Shown here piece by piece: positions 40,245 through 47,276 of a DNA stretch of 64,000 nucleotides; position 1 is the first letter of the stretch; every line of letters begins with the position of its first letter. The translations under genes were made by a program, and so were the position numbers. The notes beneath the pieces were generated by a model. That model ran no database searches and was not told the origin of the DNA. It saw nothing but the letters and a program-made list of their open reading frames with translations. Source of the stretch: Halovenus carboxidivorans (GTDB lineage Archaea > Halobacteriota > Halobacteria > Halobacteriales > Haloarculaceae); NCBI RefSeq assembly GCF_009831575.1, contig NZ_WUUT01000001.1:457345-521344 (forward strand), written 5' to 3'.

Positions 40245-40847
40245 TCACAGGTCGGGATCGATGATGACTGACTCCCCCTCGTCGTCGACCCGACCGAGCG
40301 TGATACTACAGCCCGGACAGGTCACTTCGAGGACGCTCTCGGGAATCTCCTCGGGGACCTCGGCCTTCTGATCGCAGGCGGGACAGTGAAGGGTCTCCGA
40401 CGGATAGACCCGGGACCGCCCGTCGTCCGACCGGCCGGTGTTCAGTGTCGGGGGCTGTTCCTCGGACTGGTGGTCGTGTCCAGCCGACGACCGCCGTTCG
40501 GTTCCCGCGGGGTCGCCGCCCGCCGGTTCCGAGCCGCCGTTGCTCAGTCGCCTGATCGTCCGGGCGATGCGGCGGGCCCGCTGCAACGAATCAGCGACCC
40601 CGGTCACGACGTACTCGGTTCTGCGCGTCTCGATTTCGATCTCCGGTGCGACCCCCTCGACGAGTTCCACTCTGTAGATCTGGTCGTGGTCGACGACAAT
40701 CTCGCGGTCGGATGTCGTCCCGGTCCGTGCCTCGATCACGAGCCGATCTGACTCGACGACGAGCGACAGCGCGATTGCGTCGAGCGTCTCCGCCCCCGAG
40801 GAGATGACCCGGTTCGGCTTTGCGATGTACGGAAGTTCTCCTGACAT
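40245..40847 (-). CDS. PH-like domain and zinc-ribbon protein
   Basis: This 200-aa protein has residues ~1 to 100 as a small beta-rich domain (LSLVVESDRLVIEARTG; REIVVDHDQIYRVELVEG; YVVTGVADSLQRARRIARTI) that ends with a helix, as in PH/GRAM-like folds. A disordered Gly/Ser linker follows, then a C-terminal zinc ribbon LHCPACDQKAE...VTCPGCS. It lies 108 bases downstream of the mini-transducer gene on the same strand. A similar PH-like layout occurs in the archaeal chemotaxis adaptor CheF, but I see no direct sequence match. Function unknown. Confidence 0.6.
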   Translation of the reverse strand: MSGELPYIAKPNRVISSGAETLDAIALSLVVESDRLVIEARTGTTSDREIVVDHDQIYRVELVEGVAPEIEIETRRTEYVVTGVADSLQRARRIARTIRRLSNGGSEPAGGDPAGTERRSSAGHDHQSEEQPPTLNTGRSDDGRSRVYPSETLHCPACDQKAEVPEEIPESVLEVTCPGCSITLGRVDDEGESVIIDPDL

Positions 40848-40955: not shown

Positions 40956-41363
40956 TCAGTCATCGTCCTGTCGACTCTGGTCGAGCTGTTGGTCTCTGGT
41001 CTTGACCCCGTCACGGAGCGAGGAGAGCGCCCGATACACCTCCCCGAACTCGTCGTTTCTGTTCGCTTCGAGCTCCGTATCCAGCTCCCCCTCCTCGATC
41101 TGCCGTGCTCGTTCCGCGAGCACCCGCAACGAGGACAGCGTCTCCCTGATGAACGCGGCGAAGGTGAACACGATCCCGACGAGAAGAATCAGAAAGATCG
41201 TCACGAGTCCAGACAGCAGCTGCTGTCGGGCCGAACTGCCGAGCTCCGGCGCCAGGTTCGTATAGAGGTTTACCGACGCGGCCGCGACAGCCGCGAGCAA
41301 CAACAGCCCGACGGCCCCGAACTTCTTCCTGTACTTTCCTGTTCGTTTTTTGTCGTTAACCAC
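40956..41363 (-). CDS. Htr-like mini-transducer: two membrane helices plus HAMP, no signalling domain
   Basis: This 135-aa protein starts at a GTG (41363). It aligns along its length with the N-terminal part of sensory rhodopsin II transducers (HtrII): a basic start then GKYRKKFGAVGLLLLAAVAA (TM1), a short outer loop, TM2 (LLSGLVTIFLILLVGIVF), and a HAMP domain LAERARQIEEGELDTELEANRNDEFG-like from ~85 to 125. It ends in a charged tail. The kinase-control and methylation regions of Htr proteins are entirely absent, with no sign of them in the following DNA. It is located 69 bases after the opsin. Haloarcula marismortui HtrM, as I recall, has the same reduced form. Confidence 0.82.
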   Translation of the reverse strand: MVNDKKRTGKYRKKFGAVGLLLLAAVAAASVNLYTNLAPELGSSARQQLLSGLVTIFLILLVGIVFTFAAFIRETLSSLRVLAERARQIEEGELDTELEANRNDEFGEVYRALSSLRDGVKTRDQQLDQSRQDDD

Positions 41364-41432
41364 GACCTAACTAGCGAACCGACGAATAAATATCGTCCGC
41401 TCGGGTGGATATTTGTCACAAACCGCCGTCCA

Positions 41433-42131
41433 TCACTGAGAGGCGGTCGGAACGTCGTACGACAGGAACGTGTTCAGCGTGTATTGCCTGAACAGAATAA
41501 TTGACATCAATCCGACCTTTGCGGCGATATCGAGCGTCGTGATCAGAAAGCTCAGGTCCCCCGCCTGAACGGCACCGAGACCGATGGGACCGAGAAAGTA
41601 CACCACCGGGTAGATGGCCCACGTTGCGATCGTCAGATCCCGGAGGCTGATGAACAGGCTTCGGGAGGTTCGCGAGGCCCCGATCAGCGCGCTGCTGAAC
41701 GTCTGCGCGAACAGGTAGACGAGCGCGACGAAACAGATCGTCGAGGCGCTGAATGCGATCCACTGGATCGTCCCGGACTGGGTGACGAACACGTAACCGA
41801 GCGCGATCATGACGACGTTCGCGAGCACGGCGGCCAGTTTCGTCGCCCGCTCGACGCCCGCGAGTCTGCCGAGATAGTAGGTGATAAGCGGTGTCGTCAC
41901 CATCCAGTCGGCGAACCGCAGGGCCTCCAGCCCCACACCCACGTCGACGGTCCCGGACTCGACGGCGTACATGCCGACGTACGCCGTCCCCGCGACGGCC
42001 GCGATCACTGGCGGCAGGAAGTAAAACGGCGACCGGATGCTCCCGTTCTGCACGGCGAACAACACGAACAGCACCGCGGCCGTAAAGAACACACTCGCCC
42101 CGATTCCGAACCAGACCGCTGCATCAACCAT
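41433..42131 (-). CDS. Sensory-rhodopsin-II-like microbial rhodopsin
   Basis: From the ATG at 42131 the protein has 232 aa and numbers exactly like Natronomonas SRII: R72, D75 (RFADWMVTTPLITYY), W171/Y174/P175 (WAIYP), D201 and the retinal Lys205 (LDIAAK). TTTATG about 26 bases upstream can be the TATA box; an ATG ten codons earlier is less likely. The proton-donor site of pumps (Asp96 of bacteriorhodopsin) is Tyr here, arguing against a pump. Residues that SRII uses for signal transfer differ: position 204 is Ala, not Thr, and position 199 is Thr, not Tyr. It is followed by the mini-transducer gene. Probable role: light sensing that tunes phototaxis, as proposed for SRM. Confidence 0.85.
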   Translation of the reverse strand: MVDAAVWFGIGASVFFTAAVLFVLFAVQNGSIRSPFYFLPPVIAAVAGTAYVGMYAVESGTVDVGVGLEALRFADWMVTTPLITYYLGRLAGVERATKLAAVLANVVMIALGYVFVTQSGTIQWIAFSASTICFVALVYLFAQTFSSALIGASRTSRSLFISLRDLTIATWAIYPVVYFLGPIGLGAVQAGDLSFLITTLDIAAKVGLMSIILFRQYTLNTFLSYDVPTASQ

Positions 42132-42224
42132 AGCTACCAGTAATACGGCCGTAAAACTCATAAATCCAATCTTCCCGGCGACGTGCTCACCCCGAATCTG
42201 CCCGCGTCTCGGGTGCTACCCCGG

Positions 42225-45200
42225 TCACATGAAGTCGGCAATCCCCGACTGTTTGTTGTTGTCGTTCTCGAAGATGCGCTCGATGCGCTGTTCGAGGATC
42301 TGCAACCGCTGTTTCGTGTAGTCGTCGGCGCCGAACTCCTCGGCGACGTGGATTGCGGTGTCCATGTACTTGTTGACGGATCCCTCGTGGACGGTGAGGT
42401 TGATATCGCCGCCGCACTCCCGGCAGTCGCCGGTCAGCGGCGCGCGACGGTACTTCTCGCCGCAGTCCAGACACCGGAACTCCTGGCTGGAGAAGGCCTT
42501 GAGATTGCCCAGCAGATCCGGCAGGAAGTGGAACTCGATGATCCGCTCGGCCACGTCCGACTCGTCGACGGCCCGGAGTTTCCGCGACAGCGCCAGTTGG
42601 GCGTCCATCTTCTCCTCCATCGATCCCAGGGTCTTGTACGCAGACAGATCCGGACCGGCGGCCAGATCGGTGGTGTCGTGGGTGTGATCGAAGCCGGTGT
42701 ACTGCTGGTCGGTGTCCAGCGTCTCCTCGGCGATGGTCATGATCTCTTCGACCTCACCGGTCTCGGCCATCTCGCGGGTCGACTCGTAGAACTCCCGGGG
42801 ATAGCTCCGCATGATGTCGACGTTGTGGGCCTCGTCGTCGATTTCGGCGGGGTCGATCCGGGAGGACATCACCAGCGGCGCGTCCATCCGCCCCCCGCGC
42901 TGGTCGGGTAGAAAGCTCTCAGAGAAGTTCAATAACCCGTCCAGAAGCAGCATCACGCAATCTTCGTCGCCGTCGCACTGGCCGCTGAAGATGTCGTTTG
43001 CAACCAGCGCGTGAGTATCTTCGACGGTGACACAGTAGGTGTGCGAGATGTCGGGCTCAACGTGTTCGACGGAGACCACTTCGTCGAGCCAGACATCTCC
43101 GCCGTCGCCGAGTAGCCGCTGCGGTCTGGTCTCGGTACTGGCCAGTGACGCTTCGAGTTGGGTCTGTTTTCGGGGCAGGTCAAAGCCGATACGCGAGGCG
43201 AACCGTGCGGCGTTTTCCGAGGTGATTTTCAGCACCTGCGTCTCGAAGGTCGGATCGCCGTCGTAGAATTCCGCGATGGCGCCGGAGTCGTATGTCCGAC
43301 GCTCCGTGTACGTTTTCGCGGCGATACCGAACCGTTTCAGTGCGCCTCGAAGGTCCGATTCGAGCTCCGTACTGACGGTGTGTGCTCGGACTTCGATTCG
43401 ATCCGCTGCCGTGCTGCCGTCGCCGGTGAAGTATCCCGAGAGGAACTTCTGGAGTTGCGGCTTCGGTCCACTGAACAACGGCTCGGGGATGCGCTTCGTC
43501 TCCGCTCGCGCGCCGAGTTCGAGCACGTCAGTGAACAGCGTCCCGACAAGTCGGCTCGAAGCCGTGATTTTCCACTCGTTTTCCTCGTAGGCGTCGACGC
43601 CGAGTTGGTCGTCGAAGGTCTCGGTGACCAGTTCCCGGGCGGGTTCGTCCGGGACACAGATTGTCGTTTGGTAGAACGACCCCTTTTCCCGTCGGGTAAA
43701 GCCCTCCGCCGCGTAGTAGCCGAGCAGTGTGGCGAACTCCTCGTCGATGCTGAACCGTCGGTCGATCTCTGCCGTGTCTCGCCGCACAGCGAGCGTGAGA
43801 TCGTCGGGCAGCGTCTCGACGAGTTCCTCTCGGCTCACGAGGTCGAGAAGCCGAGCGGCCGGGACGCTGTCACGACTCACCCAGTTGTAGACCGTCGACG
43901 TACTCACCCCGAACTGATCCGCACACGGACCGACGTACCCTTCTCCGGGCGTATGCTCTCGGAACAGTTGCTTGATCCGCTCGGAGCCGAGGCCCCGGAT
44001 CATCAGATCCTCGTTCGGGATCGAGTCCGCATCGATGAATGCCGCAAGTAGATCGAGTTCGTACGGATCGCCGTCGTAGCTAATCTCTTTGGGTGACGGA
44101 ACGGTGTCGCCGGCGGCTATTTCCGTGGCTTTGACGCGTTCCGGACCGTCGGCGTATCGAATCAGTTCGTGGTCAGGAGTGACCGTCAGCGAGCGACCGC
44201 CGCGGGTTTCGATCGCGACCATGTGCTCCGGGGCCGGATGCTTCGAGACGGCTTCGATCTGAGCGGACGCCTGCGCTCCGTCGTCCGTGACCGAGGGGAC
44301 CGAGAGCGGGGTCTCAAGTTCCTGCACGAGTGTCCCGACGTCGTCGGGTTCTGGATCTGTCAGCCGGTCCTCGACGACCGATTCGATCCGCTCGTGGTGC
44401 CGGTTCCCGTCTTCGTCCTCGTACCAGATCTTCGTCTCGGGATGGAAACAGTTCCGCCGTTTCGCGGCGTGAAAGTACGGATGAGCGTATCCGACGGCGG
44501 CCGACGTGAATCCGATCACTCTCCCGACAGTCGCCGCGCTGGTGTGCGGTGCCATCCCGAAGACGAGTTCGCCGACCAGGTCCTGTCGGTCCTCGAACTC
44601 GTAGTACGGCTCCAGCCCGTAGTACTGCTCCAGGAGGTCGTCGACGAAGTCGGCGGTCCGGAGCATGTGTTCGGCCGCGCCGTCGGAGAGCACCACGTCC
44701 TGCACCTTGAGTTCGACCAGTTGGTCCTCGTGGCGGAGCGGGTCGCCGCGGATGTCCTCGGTGTAGCCCAGTTCCTGCAGATCCTCGACGGTCACGTCCA
44801 ACTCCGACGGCCGGACGGCGGTCACCGGCAGGTCGGTCATGTCGTAGCGGACCGTCCCGTCCTTGAACGCCGACACGTCGTGTTTCGCCCGCAGAATACC
44901 CTTTTCTAGCGGTTCGGGCGTCTTCTCCTTCGAGGAGAGCCCCTTGACGGCCTTGAGTTTGTCGTACGCCGAGGGGCGCTCACCGACGGTCTCTAACGCC
45001 GCGTCGAGTTCCTCGTGGATGTCGAGGGTCTTGGTCTGGGTGGGAGAGGCGAGCGTCTCACAGCGGTCACACTCCGCGCGGCCGGACTCGTCCGGTTCGA
45101 CTCTGCTCTCACAGTCCGGACAGATGTAGACCGCCTCGGCGACGCCGCCGCAGTCGGGACAGCGCGGCCGGTGGGTGCGTCTCGAACAGTCGACACACTC

Positions 45201-47276
45201 CCGGCGGCCGACCTCGACCTCCACGTCGCCCTGGGTCCCCTCGACGGAGTCGCCGTGGGTCGCCGCGTCGCCGACGGCACGCTGGCTTCCACCGGCCTCG
45301 CCGATGGGGAACAGGGTGTGGACTGCCGGCGAGAGTTCCCGTTCCTCGGACTTCTCCGGCCGGCCCATCCGGTTGCCGATCCGGGTCGGCGCGCGCTCGC
45401 GAACCTCGAAGGGAGCGACCTCGTTGATCGCTTTGATCGCGTTCTCGCCGTCGGCGTACTCCCGGGCCTCGGCGCTGAGGTCGGCGAGGTCCCACGTCCG
45501 TTCCAGCGTCTCGTCGAACCCCAGCGTCCGGACGAGCGGCCGCCAGACCGGAATCTCGACGGTGTCGCCCTGCTGTGTGTGCTCGACCAGCAGCGCTTCG
45601 AGCACGCCGCGAATCTCCGCGTCGCTCTCGATCACGAGCGTCTCCTCCCCGTCCGGCGAGCCAGCGGTGGGCTGTCGCGTCGCGCCGTCCGCGAGTGCCA
45701 CCTCGCCGTCGGCGACGGCGTCAGCGAGGCGGTCGACCTCCGCGACGCTCACGTCGTGCCAGAGGTACGTGTACTCGGGATGCAGCGCCACGTCGTACTC
45801 CTCGGTCCACTCCAGCGCCCGCTCGGGGCTGGGGTGTTCGAGGTCGACGGCTACGTCGTCGCGCATCGCCTGCACCGACGCGCCCGCTTGCTCGAACTCC
45901 TGGACCCACCACTCGTAGACGTAGGAGGCCGGCGCGAGCGGGTGGTTGTTCTCGACGAACTCGCCGTAGTTGACGAGATACTCGCCGAGGTCGAGGATCT
46001 TCTCGACGCCGTTGCGGATCTCCAGCGCCTCGTCGGCGTCGTTGACCTGGCGCACGTCGCCGTTGGCGAGTCGCACCGTCGGCCCCTCGATGGAGTCGAC
46101 CGGAACGATCCCCGCGGCCTTGCCCGGTCGCTCGGTTTTGACCTGGGTCCCCGTCGCGAGAAAGTCGTCGACGAGGTGCATCGTCGCGGGGTGGATGCCG
46201 GCGGTCGCGTGGCCGTGATTGCGCGCACGCCCGTACCGGAGCCTGAACCCGCCGGTTTCGCTGGGGTGTGAGAAGACTGGCCGGCCCGCGATCAGGTCCT
46301 GCAGGAACTTCTTGGATTTCTCCGCGCGCGGCGGGCCGTCGGTGGTTTCCTCCTCGTCCGCCTCATCTTCGCTCTCCTCCGCGTCGTCGCTCTCGTCGGC
46401 CGCGTCCGTCTCTTCGTCTGTGTCTCCGTCGCCGTCCCCGTAGTTGCCGTCGATGAGATCCTGGAGCCACGGCCACTCGACCTCGTCGAGACTGCGGGTG
46501 TACCGCTGGATCTTCGGCGCCTTGAGCGCGATTCCCTCGCCGAAGACCAGACACATCCCGCCCCGGGCGGAGTTCGTGTCGACGCGTTCGAGGTCACGAA
46601 ACCCCGAGACTTCCTCGTCGCCGGTCGCCTCGCCGTCGAGCATGATCGGCATGTTGCTGGCGATGAACTTCGCCTCCTTCTCCTTGGGCGCGTACTGCAG
46701 GCCGGTCTCGCTGTCGTACAGTTCCACCTCCTCGGCGTAGCGGTTAATCTCGTCGTCTCTGGGCTTGTACTCGTCGATATCGAGCAGCGTCCGGGCGTAG
46801 TCCGCGACGAGCACAGACAGCGCCTGTGCGGTCCCGCCCGCCGACCGAATCGGACCGGCGTAGTAGATGTTGATGAACTCGGTGCCGTCGTCGTTCTCCA
46901 GCAGTTCGACCCGGTCGATCCCCTCGATCGGGGCGGCGACGACGCCCTCGGTGAGCAGCGCGACGGCCGTCCGAACCGCGCCCTCGATTTTCCCTTCGCG
47001 GGACTCGTAATCGCCGACGGTCCCCTCGACGAAGTCCTCGACCAACTCCAGGGCGGCCTCCTCGCGGGAGAACTCCCCTTCGAGTTCCCGCACCCGCTCG
47101 GCGACGCCGTCGATACCGAGGATGTTCTCGACGCGGTCGGCCATGTCCCGGGCGGTCGGAATCTCGACTTCAGGCGTGGGGTCGCCGCCGCGCTCGCGCG
47201 CCTCGTTCGCGACGGCCATCGCCCTGTCGAGTTCCGTCTCTAACTCGTCGAAGTACCGCTCGTCCTCGGGTCTCAT
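42225..47276 (-). CDS. polC: DNA polymerase D large subunit (DP2) with intein
   Basis: This 1,683-aa precursor includes a 491-aa intein; the mature protein is ~1,192 aa, normal for DP2. It starts MRPEDERYFDELETELD, typical of haloarchaeal DP2. YYAGPIRSAGGTAQALSVLVADYAR marks the N-domain; zinc-binding pairs CVDC...CPDC and CPDC...CDRC lie mid-protein; the catalytic core follows around the intein (MAPHTSAATVGR before it, CDGDEDCVMLLLDGLLNFS after it, with the metal-binding aspartates). The C-terminal zinc finger CLDC...CREC is present. An acidic insert of ~50 residues lies near residue 275. It follows the PPC gene by 4 bases, in a run of minus-strand genes. Confidence 0.93.
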   Translation of the reverse strand: MRPEDERYFDELETELDRAMAVANEARERGGDPTPEVEIPTARDMADRVENILGIDGVAERVRELEGEFSREEAALELVEDFVEGTVGDYESREGKIEGAVRTAVALLTEGVVAAPIEGIDRVELLENDDGTEFINIYYAGPIRSAGGTAQALSVLVADYARTLLDIDEYKPRDDEINRYAEEVELYDSETGLQYAPKEKEAKFIASNMPIMLDGEATGDEEVSGFRDLERVDTNSARGGMCLVFGEGIALKAPKIQRYTRSLDEVEWPWLQDLIDGNYGDGDGDTDEETDAADESDDAEESEDEADEEETTDGPPRAEKSKKFLQDLIAGRPVFSHPSETGGFRLRYGRARNHGHATAGIHPATMHLVDDFLATGTQVKTERPGKAAGIVPVDSIEGPTVRLANGDVRQVNDADEALEIRNGVEKILDLGEYLVNYGEFVENNHPLAPASYVYEWWVQEFEQAGASVQAMRDDVAVDLEHPSPERALEWTEEYDVALHPEYTYLWHDVSVAEVDRLADAVADGEVALADGATRQPTAGSPDGEETLVIESDAEIRGVLEALLVEHTQQGDTVEIPVWRPLVRTLGFDETLERTWDLADLSAEAREYADGENAIKAINEVAPFEVRERAPTRIGNRMGRPEKSEERELSPAVHTLFPIGEAGGSQRAVGDAATHGDSVEGTQGDVEVEVGRRECVDCSRRTHRPRCPDCGGVAEAVYICPDCESRVEPDESGRAECDRCETLASPTQTKTLDIHEELDAALETVGERPSAYDKLKAVKGLSSKEKTPEPLEKGILRAKHDVSAFKDGTVRYDMTDLPVTAVRPSELDVTVEDLQELGYTEDIRGDPLRHEDQLVELKVQDVVLSDGAAEHMLRTADFVDDLLEQYYGLEPYYEFEDRQDLVGELVFGMAPHTSAATVGRVIGFTSAAVGYAHPYFHAAKRRNCFHPETKIWYEDEDGNRHHERIESVVEDRLTDPEPDDVGTLVQELETPLSVPSVTDDGAQASAQIEAVSKHPAPEHMVAIETRGGRSLTVTPDHELIRYADGPERVKATEIAAGDTVPSPKEISYDGDPYELDLLAAFIDADSIPNEDLMIRGLGSERIKQLFREHTPGEGYVGPCADQFGVSTSTVYNWVSRDSVPAARLLDLVSREELVETLPDDLTLAVRRDTAEIDRRFSIDEEFATLLGYYAAEGFTRREKGSFYQTTICVPDEPARELVTETFDDQLGVDAYEENEWKITASSRLVGTLFTDVLELGARAETKRIPEPLFSGPKPQLQKFLSGYFTGDGSTAADRIEVRAHTVSTELESDLRGALKRFGIAAKTYTERRTYDSGAIAEFYDGDPTFETQVLKITSENAARFASRIGFDLPRKQTQLEASLASTETRPQRLLGDGGDVWLDEVVSVEHVEPDISHTYCVTVEDTHALVANDIFSGQCDGDEDCVMLLLDGLLNFSESFLPDQRGGRMDAPLVMSSRIDPAEIDDEAHNVDIMRSYPREFYESTREMAETGEVEEIMTIAEETLDTDQQYTGFDHTHDTTDLAAGPDLSAYKTLGSMEEKMDAQLALSRKLRAVDESDVAERIIEFHFLPDLLGNLKAFSSQEFRCLDCGEKYRRAPLTGDCRECGGDINLTVHEGSVNKYMDTAIHVAEEFGADDYTKQRLQILEQRIERIFENDNNKQSGIADFM
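42978..44450 (-). mobile_element. DP2 intein with LAGLIDADG homing endonuclease, 491 aa
   Basis: The N-splice junction is AAKRRN/CFHPETKIW (Cys1 codon at 44448 to 44450) and the C-junction SGQ/CDGDED (Gln codon at 42978 to 42980). Block B is visible (SLTVTPDHEL). Endonuclease helices are LLGYYAAEGF and FLSGYFTGDGS, both with an acidic residue, so the endonuclease may be active. An HTH-like DQFGVSTSTVYNWV lies between them and block B. Block F/G reads VWLDEVVSVEHVE...CVTVEDTHALVANDIFSGQ. The last intein residue is Gln instead of the usual Asn, a variant I recall from other haloarchaeal DP2 inteins. Confidence 0.9.

Follow-up and report, generated by a model that had tools for sequence, protein, structure and literature searches.

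How a sensory rhodopsin transducer that lacks its kinase-control region can change phototaxis has been a question since the SRM-HtrM pair (xop2-xhtr2) of Haloarcula marismortui was described (PMC6450946). In that work SRM was stabilised by HtrM, and an SRM-HtrM fusion in H. salinarum lowered both SRI and SRII phototaxis, most clearly at 501-554 nm. A 64,000-nucleotide stretch of Halovenus carboxidivorans DNA (hereafter the window) encodes an SRII-like opsin followed by a transducer that ends after its HAMP domain. A preliminary description of these two genes correctly named the published damping and proposed a receptor made to compete with or bias full-length Htr complexes. It missed a conserved third gene (Table 1).

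Table 1. Coordinates of the three genes and their parts within the window
Feature	Position	Strand	Basis
SRM-type opsin, 232 aa, seven-helix retinal protein	41433..42131	(-)	Bac_rhodopsin match, key residues, clade with HmSRM
Retinal-binding lysine codon (K205, NpSRII numbering)	41517..41519	(-)	Alignments
HtrM-type truncated transducer, 135 aa, GTG start, ends after HAMP1	40956..41363	(-)	HAMP 39.4 bits, no MCPsignal; homology to HmHtrM and NpHtrII
HtrM TM1, aa 13-35	41259..41327	(-)	Hydropathy
HtrM TM2 region, aa 44-77	41133..41234	(-)	Hydropathy
HtrM HAMP domain, aa 71-119	41007..41153	(-)	Pfam PF00672
Soluble 200-aa protein, predicted PH-fold domain and C-terminal zinc ribbon	40245..40847	(-)	Exclusive to and adjacent in SRM-HtrM genomes; no TM
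Predicted PH-fold domain, ~aa 1-105	40533..40847	(-)	Seven strands and helix; PH domains Z up to 11.5; weak bPH_2/bPH_3 in relatives
Zinc-ribbon region, aa 151-184, CxxC...CxxC	40296..40397	(-)	Sub-threshold zinc-ribbon profile matches; alignment

Opsin and transducer of the window

The opsin matched the Pfam family Bac_rhodopsin with 100.5 bits (cut-off 24.6). A second possible start of its reading frame, an ATG at 42161, lies upstream of the one in Table 1. Alignment to SRII of Natronomonas pharaonis (NpSRII), whose numbering is used throughout, revealed R72, D75, W76, Y174, D201, and K205, and all retinal-site residues were retained. Unlike SRII, the window opsin lacked Thr204, Tyr199, and Thr189, carrying A204, T199, and Q189 instead, along with Y178. 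Thr204 and Tyr199 are signalling and contact residues of SRII-HtrII. The residues listed in the preliminary description (R72, D75, D201, K205, Y174, no Thr204, and Thr for Tyr199) agree with this alignment. Tyr178 was found only in the four SRMs with K205; every other K205 opsin in our residue table had Trp. Tyr86 occupies the position of D96, the proton donor in bacteriorhodopsin (BR), and would be compatible with a slow photocycle. HmSRM absorbs near 504 nm and has a photocycle of seconds (PMC6450946). An AlphaFold model built from a five-sequence input contained seven helices with a mean pLDDT of 63 and was set aside. Inspection by eye showed TATA-like stretches some 30 bases ahead of the opsin ATG (42131) and of the transducer GTG (41363). 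The next reading frame upstream of the opsin gene (42225-47276, minus strand; 1683 aa) resembles the large subunit of archaeal DNA polymerase II with an intein-like insertion.

The transducer gene directly follows that of the opsin. Its product contained two hydrophobic segments and one HAMP domain (cut-off 25 bits) and stopped 16 residues past the latter; a Pfam scan did not find MCPsignal. NpHtrII fragments were the best PDB matches, and the TM1-TM2-HAMP1 portion is homologous to NpHtrII. In contrast to HtrII, HAMP2, the methylation region, and the CheA/CheW tip are all missing, and the opsin gene lies upstream of the transducer gene, whereas the SRII opsin lies downstream. Because it has neither methylation region nor CheA/CheW tip, HtrM cannot drive CheA directly. 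Both this limitation and the architecture of TM1, TM2, and HAMP only had been anticipated. Af1503 of Archaeoglobus fulgidus (PMC3585426) is likewise a membrane protein with a terminal HAMP and no output domain, but it is not a rhodopsin partner and its match to the window HtrM was weak (E 0.02).

A frameshifted or freshly broken full-length htr gene was rejected as an explanation. The ~110 bases between the HtrM stop and the next gene held no remnant of HAMP2 or an MCP domain in any frame, so neither a frameshift nor a single stop codon explains the short protein. For all three genes, each comparison of a pair of relatives gave a pN/pS below 1. The HtrM values were 0.15 for the closest pair and 0.45-0.58 for pairs including the window, where dS was near saturation. 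These ratios are consistent with HtrM being a maintained gene.

Relationship to SRM-HtrM and its sister clade

Locus L009 was identified as HmSRM-HtrM because all four published SRM/HtrM primer sequences (PMC6450946) match it exactly and its genome contains six opsins, in agreement with the published H. marismortui set. The window opsin and transducer are 54% and 45% identical to this pair, and both systems share the opsin-first order and the absence of an MCP domain. IQ-TREE placed the window opsin in one clade with L007-L009 and L010 (support 100/99), separate from SRI, SRII, BR, and HR. L068 and L069 formed the sister group of this clade (98/95). Both groupings reached 100/99 once the long-branched HR, L004 (SRI-like), and L010 sequences were left out. 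Judged from sequence, the window pair is a further member of the published SRM-HtrM system, as the preliminary description had suggested.

A truncated HtrM was stated to be confined to H. marismortui (PMC6450946). Contrary to this statement, it also occurs in the window, and high-scoring transducer homologues were present in only four other genomes among the 146 family genomes searched. The window form is the shortest HtrM seen, ending after HAMP1 at 135 aa versus 184 aa for HmHtrM with its degenerate HAMP2-like tail, a difference that the preliminary description had overlooked. In its relatives, HAMP2 persists whole or as a remnant: a second HAMP scored above the Pfam cut-off in L007 (30.9 bits) and L008 (29.5 bits), and the HmHtrM tail aligned with these domains but escaped Pfam detection. 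Truncation of this lineage looks stepwise, with a series from full-length transducers (sister clade) through HAMP1 and HAMP2 (Halorientalis; degenerate in H. marismortui) to HAMP1 only (window).

The sister-clade opsins (L068/L093 in G178, L069/L094 in G295) also have Ala204, lack Tyr199, and precede their transducers. Unlike the window HtrM, these transducers are 534 and 561 aa long and contain two HAMPs and an MCP tip; the SRM-like opsins and their full-length partners span L093 803-3160 and L094 736-3062. Thr204 is similarly missing from the SRI-like L004 in our residue table and from SRIs (PMC3274258). Because the sister clade has full-length transducers and SRIs lack Thr204, the opsin changes predate the truncation of the transducer or are independent of it. 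Found with full-length transducers, they are in themselves no sign of a dead or competing receptor. The claim that opsin changes and truncation together reveal a purpose-built competitor was therefore not borne out. What stands of the competitor reading is the SRM-HtrM pair, the missing kinase-control part, and the published damping; the co-evolved signature does not. Loss of the Tyr199-Asn74 contact was also rejected as a coordinated SRM signature, since most other aligned Htrs lack Asn74 and its loss is not SRM-specific.

The SRM-clade opsin L010 (613-1320, G167) carries K205M and D75G, and its neighbour is an MCP-domain transducer of 397 aa (1474-2664). Like the ORPs described in PMC4915679, this opsin may sense without retinal. 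Divergent CheW-, CheY-, and CheA-like genes lie beside this pair (L095 1114-7826). Genomes G212 and G339 contained eight and nine opsin matches, exceeding the six-rhodopsin set of H. marismortui, and the weakest of these may be retinal-free opsins.

A third gene downstream of HtrM

The third gene lies directly downstream of HtrM, on the same strand, at all four SRM-HtrM loci (the window, L007, L008, and L009). The H. marismortui genome is among these, and the published description of SRM-HtrM (PMC6450946) makes no mention of it. No paper naming this gene was found in a literature search that left out the 2010 six-rhodopsin paper. Single-protein searches of the 146 family genomes revealed no full-length homologues outside the four SRM-HtrM genomes. 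A four-sequence profile searched against 392 genomes sampled from the order scored 184-336 bits in these four genomes only, with a next best match of 31 bits. Hits at or below 31 bits mostly covered the zinc-ribbon half, and the three opened with the PH half were multi-PH membrane proteins. With phylogeny ignored and four loci considered, the chance of this overlap is approximately 1e-9. Opsin identity among the three-gene loci is 54-62%. Outside the three genes, the window, L096, and L098 have different neighbours, so the three are kept as a block. No homologue was found next to L010, which has a longer transducer, or next to the sister-clade opsins.

The predicted structure of the protein, generated from four sequences (mean pLDDT 67.5), contained seven strands and a C-terminal helix. 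VIA-align paired the model with PH chains at Z of 9-11.5; Foldseek returned nothing below E 0.001. A Pfam scan returned a weak bPH_2 match (E 0.0015) in two of the four family members. The tentative assignment as a PH fold draws on the VIA-align comparison, the secondary structure, and the weak bPH hits. A four-Cys zinc ribbon follows the PH part in three of four homologues and is absent from that of H. marismortui. Identity as CheF was rejected, with no CheF-arch hit in the Pfam scan and a profile comparison probability of 0.3%. This previously unnoticed gene, newly placed in the SRM-HtrM unit, is the best candidate for the next signalling step.

Possible outputs of the SRM-HtrM locus

On balance, we favour a reading of the three genes as one photoreceptor module (SRM-HtrM-PH) with output via the PH protein, damping, or both. 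The opsin, by its orthology and residues, would be an SRM-type sensor that binds retinal, does not pump ions, and associates with an HtrM dimer of TM1, TM2, and HAMP only. By analogy with SRII-HtrII, light would switch the HtrM HAMP, and the signal would most likely exit to the dedicated soluble PH-domain protein. SRM-HtrM may also, or instead, damp full-length SRI/HtrI and SRII/HtrII complexes, as the H. marismortui pair is reported to do in H. salinarum; damping could result from PH-protein output or be a parallel effect. We infer the link between the PH protein and HtrM from gene linkage at four loci, and favour a dedicated partner because other explanations for such exclusive linkage are hard to find. 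The more specific proposal is a rhodopsin pathway independent of chemotaxis, with SRM-HtrM as its receptor half and a HAMP-only transducer that signals to a soluble PH (and zinc ribbon) protein; we judge it somewhat less likely than not. A comparable arrangement is Anabaena sensory rhodopsin with ASRT, where a rhodopsin is proposed to signal via a small soluble protein of the same operon (PMC2739507). However, ASRT is from a different family, has a beta-sandwich fold, and reportedly interacts with the opsin directly, whereas the window has a HAMP transducer in between. Points against a module include the small number of loci (four), the lack of a zinc ribbon in the H. marismortui PH homologue, the SRM-like opsin and transducer of L010 that occur without a PH gene, and the published effect on phototaxis obtained without the third gene.

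The genome containing the window (3.25 Mb, 10 contigs) encodes five opsins. From their sequences, L001 was taken for BR and L003 for HR; L002 and L004 adjoin full-length transducers, for which the preliminary description had recommended a search. These two would be available as targets if SRM-HtrM were purely a damper, as proposed in PMC6450946 and in the preliminary description. Such a damper would compete or mix with full-length Htr complexes, or draw off adaptation enzymes, so that SRI and SRII signals fall under green light; the PH gene would then be its neighbour by chance. The constructs described in 2019 comprised xop2 and xhtr2 only (PMC6450946). As SRM-HtrM sufficed without it, the third gene is dispensable for lowering phototaxis in H. 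salinarum. However, by our reading of the methods, the fusion protein behind this effect was driven by the strong bop promoter, which leaves room for overexpression effects. Pure damping also leaves the exclusive adjacent PH gene in four of four genomes unexplained, and the opsin changes cited as a competitor's signature occur with full-length transducers too. We consider it rather unlikely.

Lower still is the probability that SRM-HtrM is a decaying receptor that binds retinal without output and is heading for loss. Progressive shortening of the transducer among relatives and the dead opsin of L010 fit such decay, but the pN/pS ratios of the opsin and HtrM (both below 1), the intact retinal site, and a three-gene order conserved across deep divergence oppose it. 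The least probable alternative is a split transducer, in which the missing signalling domain is a soluble MCP encoded elsewhere that docks on HtrM. Soluble MCPs are present in the genome, including one of 293 aa without TM, but this gene is not near the SRM locus and has ~70%-identical orthologues in dozens of SRM-less family genomes. Among the matches listed for the SRM genomes G198 and G212, the best were only 51-55% identical, and the best E-value in G339 was equally weak. The 293-aa MCP is therefore unsupported as the missing part of HtrM, and this protein does not substantiate a split signalling domain, which the preliminary description had named as grounds for refutation. Separately, seven CheF-arch matches were observed in genome G000 (loci L056-L062), several as tandem pairs.

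For the SRM-HtrM-PH module, the PH neighbour offers a concrete, testable output for a transducer without a kinase-control region. The transducer series suggests a route by which a chemoreceptor-type transducer may lose its chemotaxis output stepwise. If our proposal is true, a chemotaxis-independent rhodopsin pathway would gain a third component that is absent from the published SRM work we found.
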